64,000 bases of DNA, taken from contig JANWUR010000004.1 of NCBI GenBank assembly GCA_024958655.1, forward strand, positions 124,001 through 188,000, given 5' to 3'. The translations under genes and the position numbers were made by a program. Shown one piece after another: positions 8,190 to 50,706 of this stretch. Below the pieces are notes generated by a model. The model was not told the DNA's origin, searched no databases, and saw only the letters and a program-made list of their open reading frames with translations. Numbering within the stretch: the first letter of the stretch is position 1; each line of letters begins with the position of its first letter. The DNA comes from Cyanobium sp. FGCU6 (GTDB lineage: Bacteria > Cyanobacteriota > Cyanobacteriia > PCC-6307 > Cyanobiaceae).

Positions 8190-8262
8190 TGGAGAATAGG
8201 GGACTCGAACCCCTGACCTCTGCGGTGCGATCGCAGCGCTCTACCAGCTGAGCTAATTCCCC
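8190..8262 (-). tRNA. tRNA-Ala (anticodon CGC)
   Basis: 73-base tRNA. The acceptor stem GGGGAAT/ATTCTCC carries the G3-U70 wobble that identifies alanine tRNAs. The D-arm is GCTCAGCTGGTAGAGC. The anticodon stem CTGCG/CGCAG closes the loop ATCGCAC, so the anticodon is CGC, reading GCG codons. The T-arm is AGGGGTTCGAGTCCCCT. The discriminator is A and CCA is not encoded. Confidence 0.95.
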
Positions 8263-8307
8263 GTCGCAGGCAATTATTGCCTCTGCCCCCCCTGCCGAGT
8301 CCACCCC

Positions 8308-8526
8308 GTGGCCGAATCCGGCGTCCCGATCACCCCCGAACTGCTGGCCAGTTTCGACGAGGCCTCCATCGCCGAGCTGGCCCGGCGGCTGGAGGACGAC
8401 GACTACCTCACCCCGTTCGCCGGCCTGGCGGACTGGCACCTGCTGCGGGCCCTGGCGATCCATCGCCCCGACCTGGCCCGTCCCTATGTGCACCTGGTCG
8501 ACCAGGAACCCTTCGATGAGGACTGA
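8308..8526 (+). CDS. DUF2555 family protein
   Basis: 72-residue acidic cytoplasmic protein. The central LADWHLLRALAIHRPDLARPYVHLV and the acidic C-terminus fit the cyanobacterial DUF2555 family, whose function is unknown. The GTG at 8308 is the only plausible start. Its last 11 bases overlap the start of coaBC, so translational coupling is likely, and the pairing with coaBC is one I recall from other cyanobacteria. Confidence 0.8.
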   Translation: MAESGVPITPELLASFDEASIAELARRLEDDDYLTPFAGLADWHLLRALAIHRPDLARPYVHLVDQEPFDED

Positions 8527-9859
8527 GCAGGCCGAACCGGCCCCTGCACCCGCTCCCTCTCCCCCCGATCCCCTCGCCGGTCGGCGGGTCCTGGTGCTGA
8601 TCAGCGGCAGCATTGCCGCTGTGAAGCTGCCACTGGTGGTGAGTGCCCTGGCGGCCCGTGGGGCTGCGGTCCGCTGCGCCCTCACTCCCTCCGCGGCCCG
8701 GTTGGTCAGTCCGGTGGCCCTGGCCAGCCTCTGCCGTCACCCCTGCGCCCTCGACGACGACCAGTGGAGCCACCGGGCGGCCCGGCCCCTGCACATCGAG
8801 CTCGCCGAATGGGCTGAACTGGTGCTGATGGCTCCCCTCAGCGCCACCACCCTGGGGCGCTGGGTGCACGGTCTGGCCGACGGGCTGGTGGCCAGCACGC
8901 TCCTGGCCTGCGAGGCACCGGTTGTGGTGGCTCCGGCGATGAACACGGCGATGTGGGAGGCAGAGCCGGTGCGCCGCAACTGGCAGGCCCTGCAGGCCTT
9001 CGAGCGGGTGGTTCCCGTCGCTCCGGGCCGCGGGCTGCTCGCCTGCGATCGGCGGGGGGAGGGGCGGATGGCCGAGCCCGAGCGGCTGCTGCTGGCCCTG
9101 GAATCGCTGGCCCTGCACGGCTGGCGGCGCGACTGGGACGGACGCCGGCTGCTCGTGAGCACCGGCCCCACCCGGGAGTTCCTGGATCCGGCCCGCTGCC
9201 TCACCAACCCCAGCACCGGCCGCATGGGCGTGCTGCTGGCCCAGGCGGCCCTGCAGCGCGGCGCGGCTGTCGACCTGGTGCACGGCCCCCTGAGCGTGGA
9301 CCCCGTTCTGCTGGATGGGCTCCAGTGCCACCCGGTGGTCTCGGCTGCCGAGATGGAGCGGCAACTCTCGCGTCTGCAGCCCGAGGCCGACGCGATCGCG
9401 ATGGCCGCCGCCATCGCCGACCATCGCCGGGTCGAGGCGAGGCACGACAAGCTGCCGAAGGACGACCTTCAGCAAGCCCTGAGCGATGGTTGGGAGCCGG
9501 TGCCCGACCTGCTGGCGGGGCTCGTCGCCCGCCGGCCAGCGGGCCAGCGGATCCTGGGCTTTGCCGCCCAGAGCGGCGACGTGCTGCCCCAGGCCCGCGC
9601 CAAGTTCGCCCGCAAAGGCTGTGATCTGATCTTCGCCAATCCGATCGACCTGCCCGCTGCCGGTTTCGGTTCAGCCTTCAACCAGGGGTGGCTGCTGGGC
9701 CCGGGGGAGCGGATCGAGGCGATCGCTCCGGCGCCGAAGCTGGCGGTGGCCCACCGGTTGCTCGACGCCCTGGCGGGCCTTCCCCTCAGGCAGCCAGCGA
9801 CTGCTCTCCCGCATCGGCCGGCAGAGGGTGGGACGCGTCCAGCTGCAGCAGATCCATGA
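8516..9859 (+). CDS. coaBC: Bifunctional phosphopantothenoylcysteine decarboxylase/synthetase
   Basis: 447-residue coenzyme A synthesis enzyme. The N-terminal half is the flavin decarboxylase CoaC (VLVLISGSIAAVKLP, then APAMNTAMWE); the C-terminal half is the CTP-dependent synthetase CoaB (VSTGPTREFLDPARCLTNPSTGRMG, MAAAIADHR, FAAQSGD). The ATG at 8516 overlaps the end of the DUF2555 gene. The last 25 residues, rich in Pro/Ala/Arg, extend past the usual end and overlap the convergent 115-residue gene by 74 bases. Confidence 0.93.
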   Translation: MRTEQAEPAPAPAPSPPDPLAGRRVLVLISGSIAAVKLPLVVSALAARGAAVRCALTPSAARLVSPVALASLCRHPCALDDDQWSHRAARPLHIELAEWAELVLMAPLSATTLGRWVHGLADGLVASTLLACEAPVVVAPAMNTAMWEAEPVRRNWQALQAFERVVPVAPGRGLLACDRRGEGRMAEPERLLLALESLALHGWRRDWDGRRLLVSTGPTREFLDPARCLTNPSTGRMGVLLAQAALQRGAAVDLVHGPLSVDPVLLDGLQCHPVVSAAEMERQLSRLQPEADAIAMAAAIADHRRVEARHDKLPKDDLQQALSDGWEPVPDLLAGLVARRPAGQRILGFAAQSGDVLPQARAKFARKGCDLIFANPIDLPAAGFGSAFNQGWLLGPGERIEAIAPAPKLAVAHRLLDALAGLPLRQPATALPHRPAEGGTRPAAADP

Positions 9860-28534: not shown

Positions 28535-28552
28535 GGGCTCCGGATGGTGAGA

Positions 28553-29575
28553 ATGGCCGCATCATCCCGGAGCCAATCCTTGTCTGCCCTCACGCGCTGC
28601 CTGGAGGAGGAGGCCGCCGCCATCGCGGCCAGTGCCCAGCGTCTCGATCCCCACCAGGTGGAGGCCGCCCTGCAGCTGCTGGATCGCGCTGCCGATGGCC
28701 GTGCCAAGCTGGTGATCACAGGGGTGGGCAAGAGCGGGATCGTGGCGCGCAAGATCGCCGCCACCTTCTCCTCGATCGGGCTGATGGCGATCTATCTCAA
28801 TCCCCTCGATGCGCTGCATGGCGACCTCGGGGTGGTGGCACCCGACGACGTGACCCTGCTGCTCTCCAACAGCGGCGAGACCCAGGAGCTGCTGGAGATC
28901 CTGCCTCACCTCAAACGTCGGGGCACCGGCCGCATCGCCCTGGTGGGGCGACTGGAATCGAGCCTGGCCCGCGCTTGCGACGTGGTGCTCGACGGGTCTG
29001 TGGACCGGGAGGTATGCCCCCTGAACCTGGCGCCCACGGCCAGCACAGCCGTGGCCATGGCCATCGGCGATGCCCTGGCGGCCGTGTGGATGGAGCGGCG
29101 CGGCATCTCCCCCCAGGACTTCGCCCTCAACCACCCGGCCGGCTCGCTGGGCAGGCAGCTCACTCTCACCGCCGCCGACCTGATGGTGCCGGTGGCCCGG
29201 CTGGCGCCGCTGCAAGCCGGCACGCCGCTGCCGGAGGTGATCGCCCACCTCACCGCCGACGGAGTCGGTGCCTGCTGGGTGGCCCGCGACGATGACGGGC
29301 ATCGGCTGCAGGGCCTGATCACCGACGGCGATCTGCGGCGGGCGCTCCAGACCCATGGGGCGGAGACCTGGAACCGCCTCACGGCAGCCGACCTGATGAC
29401 GGCAGATCCGATCACGATCGGCGACGACACCCTGGCGATCGAGGCCCTGGCCCAGATGGAGCGCAACCGGCGCAAGGCGATCGGCGTGCTGCCGGTGGTC
29501 ACCGGGGCGCAGACGATGCTCGGCCTGCTGCGCCTCCACGATCTGGTGCAGGCAGGTCTGACCACGGGTGCCTGA
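28553..29575 (+). CDS. kdsD: D-arabinose-5-phosphate isomerase
   Basis: 340-residue KpsF/GutQ-type enzyme converting ribulose 5-phosphate to arabinose 5-phosphate, the first step to Kdo. The SIS domain (about 35-190) shows VITGVGKSGIVARKIAATF, LNPLDALHGDLG, LLSNSGETQEL and NLAPTASTA, then FALNHPAGSLGR. Two CBS domains follow (about 205-335). The ATG at 28553 is chosen; an in-frame ATG at 28544 is possible. It is divergent from cca and followed at once by an acyltransferase gene. Confidence 0.94.
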   Translation: MAASSRSQSLSALTRCLEEEAAAIAASAQRLDPHQVEAALQLLDRAADGRAKLVITGVGKSGIVARKIAATFSSIGLMAIYLNPLDALHGDLGVVAPDDVTLLLSNSGETQELLEILPHLKRRGTGRIALVGRLESSLARACDVVLDGSVDREVCPLNLAPTASTAVAMAIGDALAAVWMERRGISPQDFALNHPAGSLGRQLTLTAADLMVPVARLAPLQAGTPLPEVIAHLTADGVGACWVARDDDGHRLQGLITDGDLRRALQTHGAETWNRLTAADLMTADPITIGDDTLAIEALAQMERNRRKAIGVLPVVTGAQTMLGLLRLHDLVQAGLTTGA

Positions 29576-31426: not shown

Positions 31427-32200
31427 TCAGCCCGCCTCGGCCGCCGCGATCGTGCGGGCCTGCGCCAGCTGCTCGGCCGTGTCCACCGACAGGGATTCCC
31501 CCTCCACCGTGAAGGTGCCGATGCCGATGCCCGCCTCCAGCAGCCTCAGCTGCTCCAGCTTCTCGATCTCCTCCAGCGGCGAGTGTGGGAGATCGTTCCA
31601 GCGGGCCAGCACATCGGCCCGGTAGCCGTAGATGCCCACATGGCCCCAGAAGGGCGCATGGGCATGCCACTCGGCCGGATCCACACCGCGCACGTGGGGG
31701 ATCGCCGAGCGGGAGAAGTAGAGCGCTCGCCCGTCGGCGGACACCAGGGTCTTGACCACGTTGGGATTGTGCACCTTGTCGGCGCCCATCCGGTACACCG
31801 GCGTCAGCACCTCCGTGGCGGGCCCCCGCCGCTCGAACTCCGCCGCCATCGCATCGATCGCCTGCGGATCGATGAACGGCTGGTCACCCTGCACGTTGAG
31901 GATCACCGTCTCGCCAGCCGTCGCCCCGGCCAGAGCCACGATCGGCTCCACCACCGAGGCGATGCGCTCGCTGCCGGAGGCGCAGGCGGGGCTGGTGGCC
32001 AGGGCCTCGAAGCCCCAGTCCGCCGCCGCGGCGATCAGCTCATCGCTGTCGGTGCAGAGCACCACCGCCTCGGGCCGGCGGGCCTGACGGCAGCGCTCCA
32101 GCACCCGCCGCAGCATCGGGCGGCCACCGATGTCGGCCATCACCTTGCCCGGCAGGCGCGAAGACTCCAGCCGCGCCGGCACCGCCACGACGAACCGCAT
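31427..32200 (-). CDS. kdsB: CMP-Kdo synthetase (3-deoxy-manno-octulosonate cytidylyltransferase)
   Basis: 257-residue enzyme activating Kdo with CTP. The nucleotide-binding N-terminus VAVPARLESSRLPGKVMADI, then ILNVQGDQPFIDP, SRSAIPHVRG, HVGIYGYRADVL and SPLEEIEKLEQLRLLE are all typical of KdsB and separate it from sialic-acid CMP synthetases. It lies 55 bases downstream of the HIT gene on the same strand. Confidence 0.95.
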   Translation of the reverse strand: MRFVVAVPARLESSRLPGKVMADIGGRPMLRRVLERCRQARRPEAVVLCTDSDELIAAAADWGFEALATSPACASGSERIASVVEPIVALAGATAGETVILNVQGDQPFIDPQAIDAMAAEFERRGPATEVLTPVYRMGADKVHNPNVVKTLVSADGRALYFSRSAIPHVRGVDPAEWHAHAPFWGHVGIYGYRADVLARWNDLPHSPLEEIEKLEQLRLLEAGIGIGTFTVEGESLSVDTAEQLAQARTIAAAEAG

Positions 32201-41665: not shown

Positions 41666-41669
<4 letters not shown>

Positions 41670-42787
41670 GCGGCCCGCGCCAGCCTCCCGCGGTGCTTGT
41701 GCTCACCGGCGGCCTGGTCCACCTGGTGCACCAGCTGGCGGTGGTGCGCGAACTTCCCGAGCTGGCCGCGGCCCCTGCACCCGCCGCGGAAGCCGTGCCG
41801 CCGTCGATCGGCGTGCTGATCACCGGGGTGCTGCGCCGCGATCCGGTGGCCCTGGCGGGTCTGCACGGGGCAATCGAACGCTGGCTCGCGCTGCTGCGCC
41901 AGCGGGATCCCACGGCCTTCGGCGGCCTGCATCTGCTGCCCCACGAGGACGCCGCCGAGGCCGAACACTGGTCGATCGTCTGCCTCAACAACCAGTGGGT
42001 GAAGGGCCAGCGCAGCGTGATCGCCCGCCTCGATCTGCGCGACTGGGTGGTCTGCGGCGACGGCCTGGGGATCTATTACCGCTGCGCCCGCGAGCTGCGG
42101 GCCCTGCTGCCCAGCCTGCTGAACCGGCCCATCCCCGAACCCGGGCGGCGTGTGCGCTACGTGCTCAGCGGCCGCCAGCCCCTCTGGCACCGCCCCCCCG
42201 TTCCCCCGCAGCTCCCGCCGGAACGGCGCCGGCGAGAGCTGTTCGAGGCCCTGGTGGCCAGCCAGTCGGAGGAGGCCACCGCAGCCGTTGAGCTGTGCCT
42301 GGCGGCGGCAGAAACGGCCCCGCCCGGGCGGCCGCTGTGGCTGTGCTCGGTGCCGAATCTGGCCCACCAGTTCCCCGGCCACCAGATCCCGATGGCCGTG
42401 CTCGAACCGTGGCGGCAGCAGCTGGAGCAGCTCCATGGCTTCGATCCCGCCTTGGATCGGCTGGTGCTGATCGACCACCCCAAGGCGCCGCCCCAGGGCA
42501 GCTTCGGGCCCCGCGGCGAACCCTGGCTGGCGGGGCCCCTGCGCACGCCGGTGGCGCTGGAGGTGCTGGTGGAGCTGCTGATCCGGCGCCGCAGCTGCCG
42601 GCCCGTGGTGGTGGCCGGACTCACGTCGGCCCTCTACGGGGTGCGCAGGCTCACCGGGGGCGAAGTGGTGTGGCTTGGCCTGGCCCCGCTCTGGCGGGCC
42701 AACCCGCTGTACCGCCGCAAGCCCCTGGAGTTCCTGCACCGCTGCCTGCGGGCGGCGCGGATGGCACGGATCACCGGCTCCGGATAG
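41666..42787 (+). CDS. Unassigned protein coupled to uvrD, possibly polysialyltransferase-like
   Basis: 373 residues starting at a TTG that overlaps the uvrD stop. Notable segments are VLVLTGGLVHLVHQLAVVREL, IGVLITGVL, IVCLNNQWVKGQRSVIARLDL, VVCGDGLGIYYRCARELRAL, LVLIDHPKAPPQ and VVVAGLTSALYG. Their order (an N-terminal nucleotide-fold half, then a His-Pro region and a Ser/Thr loop) resembles bacterial alpha-2,8-polysialyltransferase-type GT-B proteins, but this is inference. No membrane segment is seen. Convergent with the polymerase-like pair. Confidence 0.75.
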
Positions 42788-42790
42788 GCC

Positions 42791-44029
42791 TCAGTAGCGC
42801 ACCTGCCAGGGCCAGCGGTCGGGGATGCAGAGAAACTCGTCGTTGCGGCCGCAGAGCAGGGTGCCGGAGGGCAGGAGCCTTCCCTCCAGCCAGTACTGGA
42901 ACGTGATGTACAGAGCCGGCAACACGCACCAGGTGGCTCTGTAGCGCTGCAGCCAGGCCAGGTAGAGGATCAGCAGGAAGAAGGCCACCGTGTCCGCCAG
43001 CCGGCTGGTGATCTGGGGCAGCCAGAGGTGGTCGATCGATTGCTGCACCGCGATGTAGAGCAGGCCGAAGAGCAGCAGCAGCAGGGTGATGGGACACCGC
43101 AGCAGCCTCAGGGGGGTCAGCCGCCGCTGCACGCAACCCAGCAGCAATCCGAAGAACAGGGCACGCTGCAGCCGGCCCACCACGCTGCGCACCGGGTAGC
43201 GGTTGTAGTAGTCGTCCTGGGCGTAGTCGAAGAAGCGATCGAGGGCCATCGGGGCCGCCAGCAGGAACAGGAGCAGACAGGCCAGCCCCAGAAGCAGCCA
43301 GAGGGCGAGGCGGCCCCGGCGGGCGCCCGGCGCCCCGGCATCGGACCCGGCGAAGGAGGCTCGCAGCCGGGCGGCCAGTTCCGGCAGCCGCAGCAGCAGG
43401 GGCGAGAGGCTCAGGGGAAGGTTGAGCACGAAGGTGTTGTGGGTGAGCGCGGAGAGACCCACCCCCAGGCCCAGCCAGCGCCAGGGCAGGCGGATCAGGC
43501 GGGCGGTCTGCAGCAGCAGCGGCAGCAGCAGCAGAGTCGCCAGCGCCTGGCGGGTGTGGGCGTTCTGGAGGAACCCGCGCAGCATCGGGCTGCAGGTGAT
43601 CAGCAAGGCCCACCAGCCGGCCCAGGCCGGCACCCCCCAGAGCCGAGCCAGCAGCGCCGGGGCGGCGGCGAAGCAGGTGGCCACCAGCCCCTGCACGGCT
43701 GCCATCCGGTAGGGCAGCAGCAGGATCAAGGGTCCCAGCAGCCGCCAGAGGGGTTCGGGAGGGGCCCGATCCGGATCCCATTCCAGATAGTGGGAGAAGC
43801 GGGTGGTGTCACTGTTGCCCCAGCTGGCGAGGGTGAAGAACACCGCCACCAGCGCCAGCAGAACCGCCAGCGCCCCCCACCAGATGCGCTGCCGGCCTCG
43901 CACCGCGGCCCAGTGGATCAGGATCGCCAGCAGTCCTTCCGCCACGAACAGCGTCACCAGCAGCAACGGCGCCTGGGTGACCTGATCGATCCGGAAGGGG
44001 GCGGCGGGGGGAAAGACAGGGGGGATCAT
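42791..44029 (-). CDS. Polytopic membrane protein, putative polysaccharide polymerase, copy 2
   Basis: 412 residues with about ten transmembrane helices and a large central loop region, the layout of Wzy/EpsG-type polymerases. Features are APFRIDQVTQAP near the start, FTLASWGNSDTTRFSHYLEW, LLPYRMAAVQGLVA, SPMLRGFLQNAHTRQALA, and a Cys-containing C-terminus CGRNDEFLCIPDRWPWQ. The start overlaps the stop of the upstream paralog as ATGA. No Wzx flippase is seen nearby. Confidence 0.78.
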   Translation of the reverse strand: MIPPVFPPAAPFRIDQVTQAPLLLVTLFVAEGLLAILIHWAAVRGRQRIWWGALAVLLALVAVFFTLASWGNSDTTRFSHYLEWDPDRAPPEPLWRLLGPLILLLPYRMAAVQGLVATCFAAAPALLARLWGVPAWAGWWALLITCSPMLRGFLQNAHTRQALATLLLLPLLLQTARLIRLPWRWLGLGVGLSALTHNTFVLNLPLSLSPLLLRLPELAARLRASFAGSDAGAPGARRGRLALWLLLGLACLLLFLLAAPMALDRFFDYAQDDYYNRYPVRSVVGRLQRALFFGLLLGCVQRRLTPLRLLRCPITLLLLLFGLLYIAVQQSIDHLWLPQITSRLADTVAFFLLILYLAWLQRYRATWCVLPALYITFQYWLEGRLLPSGTLLCGRNDEFLCIPDRWPWQVRY

Positions 44030-45258
44030 GGCTCTCCACCCCAACGGATCTGCCACGGCCAACGATCCGGCAGGCAGAAGAAGGAGTCGTTGCGACCACA
44101 GATCACCGTGAGGCTCTCGGGGAGCCGCTCCAGCAGCCAGTAGTTGAGCGTCACCATCAGCGAGGGCAGCACCGCCCAGCGCGCGCGGTGGTGTTCGAGC
44201 CAGGCCAGCCACACGATCAGCAGGAACAGGCCGGCCGTGTCCGCCAGCCGGTTCGTGATCGAGGGCACCCATCCCTGGCGCAGCGATTCCTGCAGCAGCA
44301 GCAGCAGCAGGAAGAAGCCGGCCAGCTGACGGGAGTGTCCGCAGGCCAGCAGCCGTCGCCAACCGAGCCGCCGCTGCCAGCACACCATGGCGGCACCGAT
44401 GAGCATCGCCAGCTGCAGGCGGGCGATCGGCAGCATGAGCACGTAGCTGTTGAAGAAGCTCTCTCTCAGGGCGTAGGTCTGAAACTTCATCCAGGCCATC
44501 GGCGCAACGAGCACCAGCAGCCCGGCCCCGACCGTCAGCAGGGCCCCGATCCCGATCAGCCGCCGCCCGTGCAGCGATCGCCGTGCCGGTTGGCCCAGCC
44601 GCGCCTCGGGCCCTGGCCCCGCCAGGAGCCTGGACAGCACAGCCAGGGCCGCCGTCGGCACGAAGGTGGTGTGGATGCCGGCGGCGGCGAAGGCGGTGAG
44701 GGCGATCCAGCCCTGTCGCACCGGCGCCAGGCGACCGGCCCCTAGCAGCAGGGGCACCAGCAGCAGGGTCATCAGGGCCTGGCGGCTGACGCCGTTCTGC
44801 AGAAAGGTGCGCAGCAACGGACTGAACACCACGAGCAGGGCCCACCAGCCACCCCAGGCCCGGGCACCCCAGCGCCGGGCCAGCAGGATCGGCATCAGGG
44901 CGTAGGCACCGGCGACCAGCCCGTGAACGAGGGCCATCCGGTAGGGCAGCGCCGGGATCATGGGTCCGATCAGCCACCAGAACAGTTCCCCGCGGGTCAA
45001 GCCGGCGCGGTCGAGGGTGAAGAAGTGGCTGAGCTTGGTGACGTCGCTGGTGCCCCAGGCGCCGAGTCCGAACAGCATGGTCACGAGCGCCGGCAGCAGG
45101 ATGGCCCCAGCGGCCCAGAGGCGCCAACGGCCGTTCCTGGCCGCCAGGGTCATCACCACGGCCGAGACAATCAGCCCCAGGGTCAGCAGCGTCAGGCCCA
45201 GGGGCGCCGCAGTCACCTGGTCGATCCGATAAGGGGCGCGGGTGGGGAAGGGAAGCAT
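44026..45258 (-). CDS. Polytopic membrane protein, putative polysaccharide polymerase, copy 1
   Basis: 410-residue paralog of the gene at 42791-44029. It shares RAPYRIDQVTAAP, GAWGTSDVTKLSHFF, LPYRMALVHGLVAG, SPLLRTFLQNGVSRQALM and the C-terminal CGRNDSFFCLPDRWPWQ, with about ten transmembrane helices. The ATG at 45258 is chosen; upstream codons are antisense-like. It follows the 377-residue gene after 8 bases and is coupled to its paralog, so kdsC, the 377-residue gene and both membrane proteins look like one operon. Confidence 0.78.
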   Translation of the reverse strand: MLPFPTRAPYRIDQVTAAPLGLTLLTLGLIVSAVVMTLAARNGRWRLWAAGAILLPALVTMLFGLGAWGTSDVTKLSHFFTLDRAGLTRGELFWWLIGPMIPALPYRMALVHGLVAGAYALMPILLARRWGARAWGGWWALLVVFSPLLRTFLQNGVSRQALMTLLLVPLLLGAGRLAPVRQGWIALTAFAAAGIHTTFVPTAALAVLSRLLAGPGPEARLGQPARRSLHGRRLIGIGALLTVGAGLLVLVAPMAWMKFQTYALRESFFNSYVLMLPIARLQLAMLIGAAMVCWQRRLGWRRLLACGHSRQLAGFFLLLLLLQESLRQGWVPSITNRLADTAGLFLLIVWLAWLEHHRARWAVLPSLMVTLNYWLLERLPESLTVICGRNDSFFCLPDRWPWQIRWGGEP

Positions 45259-45266
45259 CGCCGGCG

Positions 45267-46400
45267 TCAGGGCGTAAGGCGTTCGGACGGTCTCAGCAGC
45301 TCCCGCAGGGACGCCCTCTCCCGCACGCGATCGAATCCCCAGTAGGGATCCAGCAGCTCCCGCACGGCAGCGGTGGAAGCTGCGGGAGCCAGGCTCAGGG
45401 CCTGCTGCAGTGCGGCGCTCAGCCGCTGCCGTTCCGCCCACTCGGCGGCCTCCTCCCGGGCCTTGTCGCCCGCCAGGGCCGAGAGGTCCTGCTCGGCCTG
45501 CACGGCGATCCAGTGCAGCCGCAGGCCGAGGGCGACGCCATAGCCGAGGTGGGTGCCGAAGGCGTTGCTGGCCAGACCGTCACTCAGTTCCACCAGCGTG
45601 CGCATGGCGTCGAGGAACCAGGGATTGGAGCGGTGGCCATTGCAGGCCACGATCCACTCCGGCGGCAGCCCTGAGAGCTCCGGATCCTTCCAGTGCCGCA
45701 GCCAGATCACGCTGCGGTAGCCCCCCGCCCGCGCGGCGTCGGCCACCGCCTCGATGCAGGCAGCCGCATCCATCCGCCGCTCCACCTGGTCCCAGCTGTG
45801 GGCCAGCACCACCAGCAGGGTGGGACCGAGCTGTTGCCGCAGACGCTGGATCCCGGCGTGCTCGAGCACGGGCCGGGCGTAGGCGATCCAGGGGCCGATC
45901 GGCACCGCCGGCAGGCCGAAGCGCTCCTGGAGCCAGGCGGCTCGCCGCGGACCCATGCACAGATAGCCCCGGGTCCATGGGCGGGGGCTTTCGAAGGTGG
46001 CGGTGCGGCTCACCTTGAGCCCATGCTCCAGCAGCCAGGGCAGGGGCGGGCCGATCAGCGGCAGGCCGGCGTGGCGCTTGAGCTGCACGTCGTGGCCGTA
46101 GTGATGGGAGGAATTCTCCAGCTCACGCTGCGCAGGGCTGAAGAAGGCCTTGCGGCCGGCGGAGGATCGGAAGGAGCCCCGGTCCCAGAGGTCGGCGCAC
46201 ACCTGAGGAGCCAGCGGCCGGGTGGCGAAGGCCTGATGCACCAGACCCCGGTAGGCCGCCAGGGCCTGCCACTGGTCGCTGTCGGCCCGGGCCGCCCAGG
46301 TGAGGGGGGTGAGCGGCAGAGGGCCAAGGCGACCGTCTCGAAGAGCGCGGTGCAGACGGATGCGCAACCGATCGCGCAGGGTGCGGCTGGGATCAGTCAT
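45267..46400 (-). CDS. Unassigned protein overlapping kdsC, 377 residues
   Basis: 377 residues, soluble. The N-terminal third has a basic helix (RTLRDRLRIRLHRALRDG) and WDRGSFRSSAGRKAFFSPAQ. The middle has WTRGYLCMGPRRAAWLQERFG and LLVVLAHSWDQVERRMD. The last third has VIWLRHWKDPELSGLP and, most tellingly, LSDGLASNAFGTHLGYGVAL, the kind of late loop that in GT-B glycosyltransferases sits over the donor site. Family not recognised. Its ATG lies within the last codons of kdsC. Confidence 0.75.
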   Translation of the reverse strand: MTDPSRTLRDRLRIRLHRALRDGRLGPLPLTPLTWAARADSDQWQALAAYRGLVHQAFATRPLAPQVCADLWDRGSFRSSAGRKAFFSPAQRELENSSHHYGHDVQLKRHAGLPLIGPPLPWLLEHGLKVSRTATFESPRPWTRGYLCMGPRRAAWLQERFGLPAVPIGPWIAYARPVLEHAGIQRLRQQLGPTLLVVLAHSWDQVERRMDAAACIEAVADAARAGGYRSVIWLRHWKDPELSGLPPEWIVACNGHRSNPWFLDAMRTLVELSDGLASNAFGTHLGYGVALGLRLHWIAVQAEQDLSALAGDKAREEAAEWAERQRLSAALQQALSLAPAASTAAVRELLDPYWGFDRVRERASLRELLRPSERLTP

Positions 46401-46971
46401 TGCGATCCCGCCATCCGGCCTCCGCCAGGTCGCTCCAGGAACCGCGGGCCCGCAGGATCTCTTCGGCCAGACGCCGCACCGCCCCGTCGCCACCGTTGCG
46501 ATCGAGGACCCAGTCGGCCCGCTGCCGCAATGGCGCCACCGCATCGGCCGTGCAGAGCAGCAGACCGATCGCCGGGCGGACCGCCAGATCGTTGAGGTCG
46601 TCGCCCACGAAGGCACTTTCTGCCTGCTTCACCCCCAGCAGCTCCTGCAGATCGCGCAGGGCGGCGGGCTTGTCCCGCACGCCGGTGAGCACGTGGCGGA
46701 TGCCCAGGTAGCGGGCACGCTGTTCGGTGGCGCCGCTCTTGCCGCCGCTGAGCCAGGCCACCTCCACACCCGCCTGCTGCAGCAGGCGTATGCCGAGCCC
46801 GTCGCGCACGTCGAAGCGCTTGAGCACCTCCCCCGATTCGGTGGTCCAGAGGCCGCCGTCGGTGAGCACCCCGTCCACATCCAGCACCAGCAACCGCAGT
46901 GAGCCCAGCTGGGCTCGGCATCGGGCACGGCCGCGGCGATGACGCCAGCGTCGGTGGAGCGTGCGCAGCAC
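46393..46971 (-). CDS. kdsC: 3-deoxy-manno-octulosonate-8-phosphate phosphatase
   Basis: 192-residue HAD-superfamily phosphatase without cap domain, removing phosphate from Kdo-8-phosphate. Motif I is LLVLDVDGVLTDGG; GIRLLQQAGVEVAWLSGGKS, a Lys in VRDKPAALRDL, and FVGDDLNDLAV (motif IV) follow. The C-terminal RNGGDGAVRRLAEEIL matches KdsC. It starts 8 bases after kdsA ends, and its end overlaps the 377-residue gene by 8 bases. The basic N-terminal 25 residues are not family-like, so a later start is possible. Confidence 0.92.
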   Translation of the reverse strand: MLRTLHRRWRHRRGRARCRAQLGSLRLLVLDVDGVLTDGGLWTTESGEVLKRFDVRDGLGIRLLQQAGVEVAWLSGGKSGATEQRARYLGIRHVLTGVRDKPAALRDLQELLGVKQAESAFVGDDLNDLAVRPAIGLLLCTADAVAPLRQRADWVLDRNGGDGAVRRLAEEILRARGSWSDLAEAGWRDRND

Positions 46972-46979
46972 CGATGTCG

Positions 46980-47789
46980 TCAGAGGGTGCTCACGGCCGC
47001 ACCCCCGGCCAGGGGGGCACGGATCGCCATCAGCTGCTCGAGCAGGGGTTCAAGTCGATGCAGCGGCACCATGTTCGGGCCGTCGCTGAGGGCATTCTCA
47101 GGATCGGGATGCACCTCCATGAACAGGCCGTCCACCCCCACAGCCACGGCCGCGCGGGCGAGCGGGGCGACGAACTCCCGCTGACCGCCGCTGGAGGTTC
47201 CGCGCCCGCCTGGCTGCTGCACCGAATGGGTGGCATCGAAGATCACAGGGCAGCCCAGATCATGGAGCTGGGGCAGGCTGCGGTAGTCGACCACAAGAGT
47301 GTTGTACCCGAAGCTGTTGCCCCGCTCAGTGAGCAGCACCTCGCCCGCGCCGGCATCGCGCAGCTTGGTCACCACCTGGGCCATGTCCCAGGGAGCGAGA
47401 AACTGGCCCTTCTTCACGTTGATCGCCTTGTCGGTGCCGCGGGTGGCCTCGGCGGCGGCCACGAGCAGATCGCTCTGGCGGCAGAGGAAGGCGGGGATCT
47501 GCAGCACGTCCACCACCTCGGCCACCGGCGCGGCCTGCTGACTCTCGTGGATGTCGGTGAGCACGCGCAGGCCGAAACGGCGCTTCACCTCGGCGAGCAC
47601 CTCGAGGCCGGCATTCACACCCGGGCCGCGATAAGAGCGGCCGGAACTGCGATTGGCCTTGTCGAAGCTGGCCTTGAAGATGTAATCGATGCCAAGCCGA
47701 TCAGTGATCGCCTTCACCTGCTCGGCGATCGAGAACACGAGATCCTCGTTCTCGATCACACAGGGGCCGGCAATCAGCGTGAACGGCAT
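46980..47789 (-). CDS. kdsA: Kdo-8-phosphate synthase
   Basis: 269-residue class I aldolase-fold enzyme condensing arabinose-5-phosphate with phosphoenolpyruvate. It has [71 protein letters not shown] and [18 protein letters not shown]-type residues at the N-terminal site suggest that metal dependence could be examined. First of a kdsA-kdsC-377 aa-polymerase pair run. Confidence 0.96.
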
Positions 47790-47835: not shown

Positions 47836-49701
47836 TCAGCCCACCAGTCGACGCTCGAGCGACGCCAGATCCCTGAAGCTCTCGGAGCGCTGCTGCAGCT
47901 CCTCGAAGCTGCCCCATGCCTTGATGCGGCCCTGCTCGAATTCATAGATCCGATCGCAGCGCATCACCGTGGAGAGGCGGTGGGCGATCACCACGGTGGT
48001 GCAACGGCGGCCGATCACTTCGAGGGCCTGAATGATTTCATTCTCCGTGCGATTATCAAGGGCGCTGGTGGCTTCATCCAGGAGCAGAAATTCGGAGCCC
48101 CTGTAGAAGGAACGCGCCAGGGCCAGGCGCTGACGCTGGCCTCCGGAGAGCTGCAGGCCGTTCTCGCCGATCGGGGTGTGCAGCCCGTAGGGCAGTTCGG
48201 AGACAAACTCATCAAGCTGGGCCGCCTCGAGGGCGCTCCAGACAGCATCCTGGTCCACCTCATCCTCCTCCTTACCGAAGGCCACGTTCTCCAGAACGCT
48301 GGCATCGAGGAGATTGATGAACTGGGGCACCTGGGAGCAGCAGGCCTGCCAGGCCGGCCGATCCAGATCAGATACGGGAATGCCATCGAGCGTGAGAGCA
48401 CCCCTCCCGGGCTCGAGCAGGGCCAGCAGCAACTGAGCCGTCGTGGTCTTGCCGCTGCCGGTGGTACCCACGAAGGCCACGCGGGATCCCACGGGGATGG
48501 TGAGGTCAATGCCCCTGAGCACCCAGTCAGCGGATCCGGGGTAGGCGTACCAGACGTCCTGAAGGCCGATCGAGCGGGTGGGGAAGACGCCCAGGGGGCT
48601 GGGCACACCCGGATCACCGAGCACCGGCCGACCGGTGGGCAGGCGCAGATACTCCAGGGTGGTGTCGATCACGGGAAGACCGCCCCGCAACTGGTTCATC
48701 GAGGCGAAGAAGTCCTGGAGGGGAGGCGTGAGCCGCAGGGCCGCCACCGCGAGGGAAGCCAGAAAGGGCAGCACACTGCGGATATCGGAGCGATCGCCGC
48801 CCATCAGGGGCGGCACAGCACCGACGGCGAAGATCAGAGTGATGCCCAGGGGCTCGATCAGTACCCGCGGGATCGTGGGCAGCAGCTCGGTGACCCAGGC
48901 ATGGCTCTTGGCCCGCTCGCCGGTGCGCACGAAGGCTTTGCGGAAGTGGTCTTCGGAAGCGGTGAGCTTGATGTCGCGGATGGAGCCGAGTGATTCCAGC
49001 AGGATGTGGGCGGTGCGGGATTCGAGCCGCAGCTTCTGCTTGGCGGCATGGCGGAGATAAGGGGTGATCAGCTGGGAGATCAGCAGATAGGCGCCCACGA
49101 GAGCCGAGATCAGCAGAACAGCCGACCAGCGCCCGATCACCAGAATGCCGATCGAGAGCAGAGCGATCGAAAAAATGCTGCCCACCATCTTGAGCAGCGG
49201 ATTGACGACGGAATTTGAAGTTTTCTTAATATGACTCAGCACCATCGTCGAAAGCTTGGCGGTGCTTTTCGAAAGGTGATACTCATAACCCTGAGCCAGT
49301 ACATTGGCATGGATCATGTTGGAGAGATCGATCCACACCCTCGCGGTGAGTCGTTGCTGCAGGAACTGCAGACCGAACTTGACGAACGACGCGAGCCAGG
49401 AGAGGATCACAAAGATCAGAATCAGCCATAGGCTCTGATCCACGGCATCACCACCGAACACCTTCACCCCAGGCACCCTGTCCTCGAGATCGGCACCCAC
49501 CAGGGAACCCATGAGCCGGGCGATCACCGCCACCGAGCCCAGATCAAGGATGCCGGGGATCAGCGAGAAGGCCACCACCCGACGCAGTTGGCGCAGCCGC
49601 TCTGCAGGCAGATAGGCCATCAGTGCCCTCAGCTGGCGGGCGGTGCGGCTCCTGGCGAAGATCCTGGAGAGGGGCCGTAGGCGTCTTGGACTTGAACCCA
49701 T
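47836..49701 (-). CDS. ABC exporter, fused membrane and ATPase domains
   Basis: 621-residue half-transporter of the MsbA/PglK type that flips or exports lipid-linked substrates. The N-terminal region (about 25-330) has six membrane helices. The ATPase has Walker A GTTGSGKTT at about 410-418, Q-loop SQVPQFINLL, signature LSGGQRQRLALARS near 515, Walker B FLLLDEATSALD near 537 and a His switch VIAHRLS. In this setting it could move the glycan or its lipid-linked precursor; this is inference. It lies upstream of kdsA on the same strand. Some codons in the membrane domain are less GC-rich than its neighbours. Confidence 0.9.
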   Translation of the reverse strand: MGSSPRRLRPLSRIFARSRTARQLRALMAYLPAERLRQLRRVVAFSLIPGILDLGSVAVIARLMGSLVGADLEDRVPGVKVFGGDAVDQSLWLILIFVILSWLASFVKFGLQFLQQRLTARVWIDLSNMIHANVLAQGYEYHLSKSTAKLSTMVLSHIKKTSNSVVNPLLKMVGSIFSIALLSIGILVIGRWSAVLLISALVGAYLLISQLITPYLRHAAKQKLRLESRTAHILLESLGSIRDIKLTASEDHFRKAFVRTGERAKSHAWVTELLPTIPRVLIEPLGITLIFAVGAVPPLMGGDRSDIRSVLPFLASLAVAALRLTPPLQDFFASMNQLRGGLPVIDTTLEYLRLPTGRPVLGDPGVPSPLGVFPTRSIGLQDVWYAYPGSADWVLRGIDLTIPVGSRVAFVGTTGSGKTTTAQLLLALLEPGRGALTLDGIPVSDLDRPAWQACCSQVPQFINLLDASVLENVAFGKEEDEVDQDAVWSALEAAQLDEFVSELPYGLHTPIGENGLQLSGGQRQRLALARSFYRGSEFLLLDEATSALDNRTENEIIQALEVIGRRCTTVVIAHRLSTVMRCDRIYEFEQGRIKAWGSFEELQQRSESFRDLASLERRLVG

Positions 49702-49731: not shown

Positions 49732-50706
49732 TCACCCCCGCGCCAGCCAGCGCCTGAGCCGCCCCTGCAACTGGTCGGCTCGCACCCTCCAGATCGGAGG
49801 GGGCCGCAGGGGAGGCTCGCCATGGAAGCGCAGCCGCCAGTGGGCGTCGATCGCCTCCAGCGCAGCGCGCCAGCGCTCCAGCAGCACGGGTTCCGCACAC
49901 GCGTCCAGCAGCATCGTCAGGCGTTCCGGTGGCGGCAGCCAGGCCGCGGGACGGGCCACGGCAGCGCGGATGCGCTCCAGATCGGCCACCAGGGTGCCGC
50001 AGCCGATCTGATGGCCCATCTGGCCGGGGTCGAGGCTGTCGGCCAGGGCGTGATTGAAGCTGCTGAACACCACGCAGCCGCAGGCCAGGGCCTCGAGCGG
50101 GGGCAGCCCGAAGCCCTCGCTCACCCCGCGGCCACGCCAGTAGTCGGCCGAGTCGTACAGCACAACCGTGGCGCTGTTGAACAGATCCACCAGATCGTCG
50201 ACCCAGCCGCTCTGCACCTCCACCCGCAGGCCTGCCCGGCGCAGCTCCGGCACCAGCCGATCGAGCACGTAGCTGCTGGTCTTGCGCCGCTGCACCAGAA
50301 CATCGATGGGCCGACGAGGGAGCGCACCGCCCTCACCCCGGCCGCGGGCCCCCCGCTCCAGCCACATCGGCTCCAGGGCGTTGGGCACCAGGAACAGGGG
50401 GTTCCTTGGAGCGCGATCGCCCCAGTAGCCCAGGGTGTTGCGACTCACCGCCAGCACCGGCACCCCGGGCGGGAGGTCAAAGCCGTAGCCGCTGCTGTGG
50501 GCGTGATAGGCCACGGGGCGACCCCTCAACCTTCGCAGCTGCCGGGGCACATCGAACCCCCAGCTCACCACCCAGAGAGCCTGCCCCGGGGCCGGCTCAC
50601 GGCGCAGCAGATCAGATAGGAAGGCATGATCCGCTTCTCGCTGCCGGTACGTCACCACCTCGGTGGGGCGCAGCCCAGCCACCAGACGGGCGGTCTGCTG
50701 CTCCAC
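49732..50706 (-). CDS. Glycosyltransferase (GT4-like), N-terminus uncertain
   Basis: At least 324 residues of a GT-B glycosyltransferase. It has YHAHSSGYGFDLPPG, VLAVSRNTLGYWG, VPNALEP, IDVLVQRRKTSSYVLDRLVPEL and the donor-site GVSEGFGLPPLEALACGCVVFSS. The first canonical start is the GTG at 50706, but the frame is open upstream into the ho1 end, and codons 50760-50707 translate to IRFLVPGTSSRFRGGGLL, which looks like the missing first beta-strand and glycine loop. A non-canonical start near 50784 to 50760 is therefore likely. It is the last gene of a ho1-GT pair. Confidence 0.8.
   Translation of the reverse strand: MEQQTARLVAGLRPTEVVTYRQREADHAFLSDLLRREPAPGQALWVVSWGFDVPRQLRRLRGRPVAYHAHSSGYGFDLPPGVPVLAVSRNTLGYWGDRAPRNPLFLVPNALEPMWLERGARGRGEGGALPRRPIDVLVQRRKTSSYVLDRLVPELRRAGLRVEVQSGWVDDLVDLFNSATVVLYDSADYWRGRGVSEGFGLPPLEALACGCVVFSSFNHALADSLDPGQMGHQIGCGTLVADLERIRAAVARPAAWLPPPERLTMLLDACAEPVLLERWRAALEAIDAHWRLRFHGEPPLRPPPIWRVRADQLQGRLRRWLARG

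Follow-up and report, generated by a model that had tools for sequence, protein, structure and literature searches.

A GT-B-fold protein encoded beside kds genes in Cyanobium sp. FGCU6, a candidate CMP-Kdo transferase with relatives among pseudaminic-acid genes

The transferases of CMP-activated sialic acids and Kdo that belong to families GT29, GT38, GT42, GT52, GT80, GT99 and GT107 have in common a (K/R)XHP motif for CMP binding, according to PMC12887879, in which KrkA (GT140) is described as being without the K/R of this motif, and a QXXXD nucleophile motif as being kept in the retaining Kdo transferases of GT99, GT107 and GT140. The same paper (PMC12887879) points, for known Kdo and Pse transferases, to an axial C5 substituent common to the two acids, and describes the group formed by GT99 (WbbB), GT107 (KpsC), GT118 (KpsS1) and GT140 (KrkA) as serving Kdo as well as Pse. 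The family considered here resembles this group in its GT-B-type fold and in appearing to serve both kinds of acid, but differs from it in having neither a PF05159 match nor a conserved (K/R)XHP or QXXXD. With WaaA (GT30) it has in common the GT-B fold and the presumed CMP-Kdo donor, whereas PF04413 is unmatched at E up to 1 in 28 family members; with the sialyltransferases of GT38, GT42, GT52 and GT80 it would share donors that are CMP-activated 2-keto-3-deoxy acids, but not their (K/R)XHP, and it has no Pfam match. The comparison with WaaA, KpsC/KpsS, GT52 and GT38 that was proposed in a preliminary description of this DNA gave no match to their Pfam families, GT52 and GT38 being presumably represented in that collection.

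As to the glycans concerned, the LPS of two marine Synechococcus has been reported to be without Kdo, and other cyanobacteria to be with or without it (PMC4515613), so that lipid A is an unlikely acceptor and a Kdo product is undocumented for the picocyanobacterial group. In the openly licensed literature, neither the family nor a cyanobacterial Kdo transferase is described among the matches listed, which is a weak negative.

The gene lies in a window of 64,000 nucleotides from Cyanobium sp. FGCU6, i.e. the whole stretch of DNA that was analysed, where it occupies positions 45267-46400 of the minus strand, with its ATG at 46398-46400 and its stop at 45267-45269, and encodes, as judged from reading frame, translation, family and model, a 377-residue GT-B protein that is a candidate CMP-Kdo transferase. 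The plus strand across the same interval contains a stop, and a plus-strand frame was therefore rejected as the gene; the minus-strand frame is not a chance open reading frame, since 62-91% identity is retained across 25 other named loci. Two features of the arrangement given in the preliminary description hold: its start and the 3' end of kdsC share 8 bases, and the membrane protein pair begins 8 bases past the stop, with the ATG of the next gene at 45258.

Upstream are kdsC, for Kdo-8-phosphate phosphatase (46393-46971, minus strand; TIGR01670, 147.6 bits against a cut-off of 106.95), and kdsA, for Kdo-8-phosphate synthase (46980-47789, minus strand; TIGR01362, 404.2 bits, cut-off 314). Further away in the window are kdsB, for CMP-Kdo synthetase (31427-32200, minus strand; TIGR00466, 187.7 bits, cut-off 155.2, and also PF02348), and a kdsD-like gene for an arabinose-5-phosphate isomerase with SIS and CBS domains (28544-29575, plus strand, start set by alignment). 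All four are located within 20 kb of the gene, and thus the four steps to CMP-Kdo are encoded. Beyond kdsA follow an MsbA/PglK-like ABC transporter (47836-49701, minus strand), which scores below the cut-offs of named subfamilies, and a GT4-type glycosyltransferase (49732-50706, minus strand), both in kept synteny. On the other side are polymerase-like membrane protein 1 (44026-45258, minus strand) and the related protein 2 (42791-44029, minus strand), with six and seven hydrophobic segments, respectively, in a simple scan; the start of protein 2 was placed, presumptively, by an ATGA overlap. No Pfam family scores above cut-off over the pair (42791-45258), which resembles a duplicated Wzy-type polymerase. 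A 372-residue open reading frame at 41666-42787 (plus strand), with no Pfam or NCBIfam match, remains in the vicinity of the two polymerase-like genes and of the candidate transferase gene in most picocyanobacterial loci of sufficient length.

The protein is probably a GT-B-fold CMP-ulosonate transferase that uses CMP-Kdo in Cyanobium sp. FGCU6. The computed basis of this reading consists of fold, conservation, gene order, co-occurrence and a genome without WaaA- and KpsC/KpsS-type proteins; the donor, the acceptor, the roles of polymerase and transporter and the catalytic residues are inferred. The suggestion, made in the preliminary description, of a possible CMP-Kdo-using transferase of a new family is accordingly supported by the fold and by co-occurrence with kds genes. 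With somewhat less assurance, we favour the broader proposal that it represents the Kdo branch of an undescribed family of GT-B CMP-ulosonate transferases, which bind CMP without (K/R)XHP and serve pseudaminic or similar acids, and one clade of which went over to Kdo in picocyanobacteria. This clade would incorporate Kdo into a Wzy-type polymer at the surface of organisms with a presumably Kdo-free LPS.

No match covering the 377-residue protein was found in Pfam, in NCBIfam or among PDB sequences (the last being searched with single proteins and with a profile). The Pfam scan of the window protein returned DUF1194 alone, at E 0.15; in that of 28 family members, four families with no relation to one another appeared, each in no more than two members and at a best E of 0.02. 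Some members are fused to other domains, namely to an FkbM methyltransferase (L071), to a GT4 domain (L077) and to a methyltransferase-like domain just under its Pfam cut-off (L075), and the domain common to these three is covered by no Pfam family. The three fusions sit in pseudaminic-acid clusters, and the proteins of L072-L074 are similar to that of L071 in length.

The nearest named relative, at 91% identity, is that of Cyanobium sp. FGCU52. Carriers amount to 20 of 42 sampled genomes in the window's genus, its own counted, and the gene was found in 25 named loci that are picocyanobacterial by title or gene order; the two sets overlap, apparently for 16 carriers, and were never summed. One of the loci (L036, CALPNT020000044.1) is titled Bifidobacterium breve and has a typical picocyanobacterial kds locus, so that the name of the bin is probably wrong. 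Among the 20 genus carriers, G034 (locus L019) has an inner TGA within the gene match and no kdsC in front, and may hold a decaying copy or an assembly error. Profiles reached two marine Synechococcus-type genomes (G305 and G334) and more distant cyanobacteria, and a class-wide survey with a broad profile found the family in 22 of 388 genomes and 13 of 159 genera, the 22 carriers including five from one genus (g206) and six from the window's own family. A plasmid search with the window protein gave no match; tblastn with the relative from G324 led to an Aureibacter plasmid, with 82% of the query aligned at 37% identity, and to two Azospirillum plasmids, with 58% aligned at 25-26%. Searches of phages with a distant relative, and of viral contigs with a relative and then a profile, yielded nothing useful.

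Within the genus, the gene goes with the Kdo pathway. KdsA, searched in the 42 genus genomes and six others, is present in all 20 genus carriers (19 above cut-off, one split into two pieces) versus 8 of the 22 non-carriers (Fisher p 7e-6, uncorrected for kinship), and none of the 14 KdsA-less genomes of the genus has the gene. For KdsB, 17 of the 20 carriers have a match above cut-off; in G034 it is in two pieces and below cut-off, and in G022 and G039 none was found. The order kdsA-kdsC-gene is the same in 25 of 25 named loci, and in 22 of them a polymerase-like gene follows directly. In the marine genomes G305 and G334, the family gene stands directly after kdsA and is followed by a polymerase-like gene, and genes resembling kdsB and kdsC are no more than 10 kb away; in the most divergent genus member (G020), 13 kb separate the gene from kdsA. 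In G334, the polymerase-like gene behind the family gene (L085, about 8218-9291, minus strand) is in broken reading frames.

Sulfotransferase-like proteins (PF13469) lie beside kds genes in marine Synechococcus-type genomes (L084:2220-3077, L084:4593-5474, L095 and L096), and of two that were tested against PF13469 one is below cut-off; in G045 and G284, where the family gene was not found, such a protein comes directly behind kdsA. Kdo-containing glycans may be sulfated in these organisms.

Outside the Kdo-linked clade, the company of the gene changes. The co-occurrence with kds genes expected from the preliminary description holds throughout the genus, but distant relatives do occur away from kds genes, in the company of genes for pseudaminic or similar nonulosonic acids. 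Read strictly, this bears on the refuting condition set in the preliminary description, namely frequent presence without kds genes, but it widens the idea to CMP-ulosonate transferases rather than ending it. All 22 class-wide carriers have a ulosonate synthase in the same genome, at most 38 kb from the gene; in 18 of them no more than 3 kb separates it from KdsA or from a PseI-type synthase, and the other four are G020 (KdsA at 13 kb), G539 (NeuB at 18 kb) and G324 and G533 (NeuB/PseI at 33 and 38 kb). In the last two genomes the gene stands 33-38 kb from the pse genes, amid other genes, and KdsA, sought among the distant carriers in these two, is below cut-off. A strong NeuB match (at least 130 bits) is found in all 13 carriers that a further profile search gave outside the window's family, versus 74 of 291 genomes overall (hypergeometric 8e-9, uncorrected for kinship). 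On the Aureibacter plasmid, the family gene occurs together with pseB, pseC, pseF and pseI, followed by an EpsG-family protein; on the Azospirillum plasmids, a NeuB-family gene is about 7 kb away. All four of the Aureibacter and cyanobacterial proteins that were tested pass the curated PseI cut-off, the one from G324 being encoded 33 kb away from the family gene; the remaining cyanobacterial synthases are labelled PseI-type on their best match alone. A tested Azospirillum protein of the NeuB family fails both the NeuB and the PseI cut-offs.

In a tree of 28 rows, a chosen subset of loci whose Kdo or nonulosonate contexts were assigned by the analyst, the 14 Kdo-linked members fall on one side of a single branch with support of 100/100 and the 14 others on the opposite side. 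A single change between Pse-type and Kdo donors would be the simplest reading of this pattern; its direction hangs on the root, and several long branches caution against reading the deeper order.

Of other Kdo transferases, the search covered two types, WaaA (PF04413) and the KpsC/KpsS domain (PF05159). WaaA exceeds its cut-off in none of 26 genomes, which include 10 of the 20 carriers; weak matches appeared in two genomes, and the controls (E. coli, Caulobacter and Bacteroides) were positive. PF05159 was not found in the window's genome, and it is absent from 12 and present in 8 of the 20 genus carriers. Over the 28 KdsA-bearing genomes of the genus, 12 have the gene alone, 8 the gene and PF05159, 7 PF05159 alone and one (G028) neither; among the 14 KdsA-less ones, the family gene is found in none and PF05159 in three, one by a weak match. 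By this tally, the gene acts like one of two alternative routes for Kdo use in KdsA-bearing genomes. In G025, G026, G038 and G040, which have KdsA and not the family gene, there is a PF05159 match at a distance of 4-5 kb from kdsA. KpsS-like PF05159 proteins at that distance from kdsA (L088:14730-15974, L089:14744-15916 and L094:14409-15656) may be an unrelated replacement; hhalign of the family against such proteins gave a probability below 1%, in a weak test whose profile consisted of three near-identical rows. The genome with neither type, G028, has kdsA, kdsB, kdsC and kdsD-like genes (L091), so that a further Kdo transferase may exist in this genome.

The full-length model was confident only from about residue 100, residues 1-94 being modelled poorly and largely missing from distant relatives, and a trimmed model was therefore built of the core, residues 95-377 (45270-46118, minus strand). 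Its fold, a check set beforehand, is predicted with a mean pLDDT of 88.9 and a pTM of 0.88 and supports the assignment of the core as a GT-B enzyme, a class with two Rossmann-like lobes that enclose the active site. In the VIA comparison, the best 50 rows are all GT-B-fold enzymes as labelled from their titles, and structures of GT30, GT52, GT80, GT99 and GT107 are not among them. The first nine rows are TagF, TarL and two capsule multienzymes (Z 9.3-10.4, rmsd 4.1-4.8, 232-250 residues aligned), users of cytidine nucleotides, in part by their titles; then come UDP-GlcNAc epimerases and UDP-/TDP-sugar GT-B enzymes at Z 9.3 and below. The lead of the cytidine users is narrow, with margins of about 1, and is thus suggestive only. 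A structure search of a viral library returned mostly generic glycosyltransferases with weak scores.

The first VIA rows, the nearest solved folds, raise the question of whether the protein instead transfers alditol phosphates from CDP-glycerol or CDP-ribitol, as a relative of TagF, TarL and Bcs3-type capsule enzymes, which have cytidine nucleotide donors and move alditol phosphates and not ulosonic acids. Besides the ranking, an invariant HG motif of the family resembles the active-site histidine of TagF. However, the identity to these enzymes is 9-10% over the aligned part; the TagF-like domain, Glyphos_transf in Pfam, is unmatched at E up to 1 across 28 members; the CDP-glycerol synthase TIGR01518 exceeds its cut-off in none of 40 carriers, ten of which give weak matches; and the neighbouring genes are different, being those of ulosonate synthesis. 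Such an activity therefore appears very unlikely.

Somewhat more credit, although it too is unlikely, is given to an ordinary glycosyltransferase of the same polysaccharide, which would use a UDP-, GDP- or dTDP-sugar and would be found with kds or pse genes on account of another sugar shared by these polymers. Many UDP-sugar enzymes have the GT-B fold in common with the core (Z 8.3-9.3), Foldseek, the order of which differs from that of VIA, puts them first, with low TM-scores, and other glycosyltransferases are encoded nearby. Against this stand the association of one clade with Kdo and of others with Pse-like acids, for which a shared donor type is likelier than a shared second sugar, the frequent direct adjoining of gene and synthase (the gap, measured in 13 pseI-linked loci, is 0-25 bases in 7 of them), and the PF05159 protein present in 7 of the 8 KdsA-bearing genus genomes that are without the gene.

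Since UDP-GlcNAc 2-epimerases come after the first nine VIA rows, at Z up to 9.3, and since PseG likewise has a GT-B-like fold, the protein might also take part in donor synthesis, as a hydrolase or epimerase of the PseG or NeuC kind, rather than in transfer. This is the most improbable of the alternatives. The established Kdo pathway has no hydrolase or epimerase step of this kind and so requires no such enzyme, and fusions with GT4 and methyltransferase-like domains suit glycan assembly better. Moreover, a separate PseG-like gene lies beside the family gene in the four clusters tested (two above the PseG cut-off and two below), so that the family protein is seemingly not needed for donor synthesis there; further PseG-like genes in pse clusters were recognized by similarity.

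For the preferred reading, that of a CMP-ulosonate transferase, the chief doubts arise because the CMP motif is missing, the structural neighbours are TagF-like and donor use is inferred. A (K/R)XHP sequence is found in 1 of 42 rows of the family, at a non-conserved site, and QXXXD is kept at no position family-wide; it is present somewhere in 23 of 42 rows, most commonly at residues 66-70, before the core, in 10 rows that are close relatives. As neither motif is conserved, the family either binds CMP differently or has a different donor. A reading of HWKDP (residues 236-240) as a degenerate form of the HP motif was dropped, the hhalign behind it not being significant.

What is conserved was defined over 17 divergent members. 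Y101-G102 (46095-46100, minus strand) and H126-G127 (46020-46025, minus strand; a candidate catalytic site) are invariant, as is G355, with P170 nearly so; in H201-S202 (45795-45800, minus strand), a candidate contact of the donor phosphate which in the model follows the first strand of the C-terminal lobe, the histidine is invariant and the serine nearly so. The late loop singled out in the preliminary description, N279-Y287 (NAFGTHLGY; 45540-45566, minus strand), has in most relatives an N followed by G(T/S)H, and lies within SDGLASNAFGTHLGYGVAL (residues 273-291 of the 377-residue protein), which is strongly kept among close relatives. With the known motifs not conserved, the invariant YG, HG and H of HS, together with the mostly retained GH..(N/D)P.F and G(T/S)H, make up a candidate active site.

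On these grounds, a soluble GT-B enzyme would move an ulosonic acid from its CMP-activated form onto a growing surface glycan. In Cyanobium sp. FGCU6, the donor would most likely be CMP-Kdo, supplied by the products of kdsD, kdsA, kdsC and kdsB, and the product most likely a lipid-linked repeat unit, which the neighbouring ABC transporter may flip and the polymerase-like pair may join to others. The relatives in other cyanobacteria and on the Bacteroidota and Azospirillum plasmids would use CMP-pseudaminic or a similar CMP-nonulosonic acid. In the proposed mechanism, the C-terminal lobe, through HS and the GH..NP.F and N.(F/I)GTH loops, would hold the CMP part of the donor, while H126, which belongs to the HG motif and lies at the cleft, would act on the acceptor, in a manner compatible with either a retained or an inverted anomer.

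Many picocyanobacteria have Kdo-pathway genes, yet the LPS of marine Synechococcus is reported to be Kdo-free, and the gene offers a concrete enzyme and locus for the destination of Kdo in these organisms. If the broader proposal is true, the wider family would supply the missing transferase in a number of pseudaminic-acid clusters, provide a natural series for a change of donor between Pse and Kdo on one fold, and give an example of CMP binding achieved without the motif of the known families.
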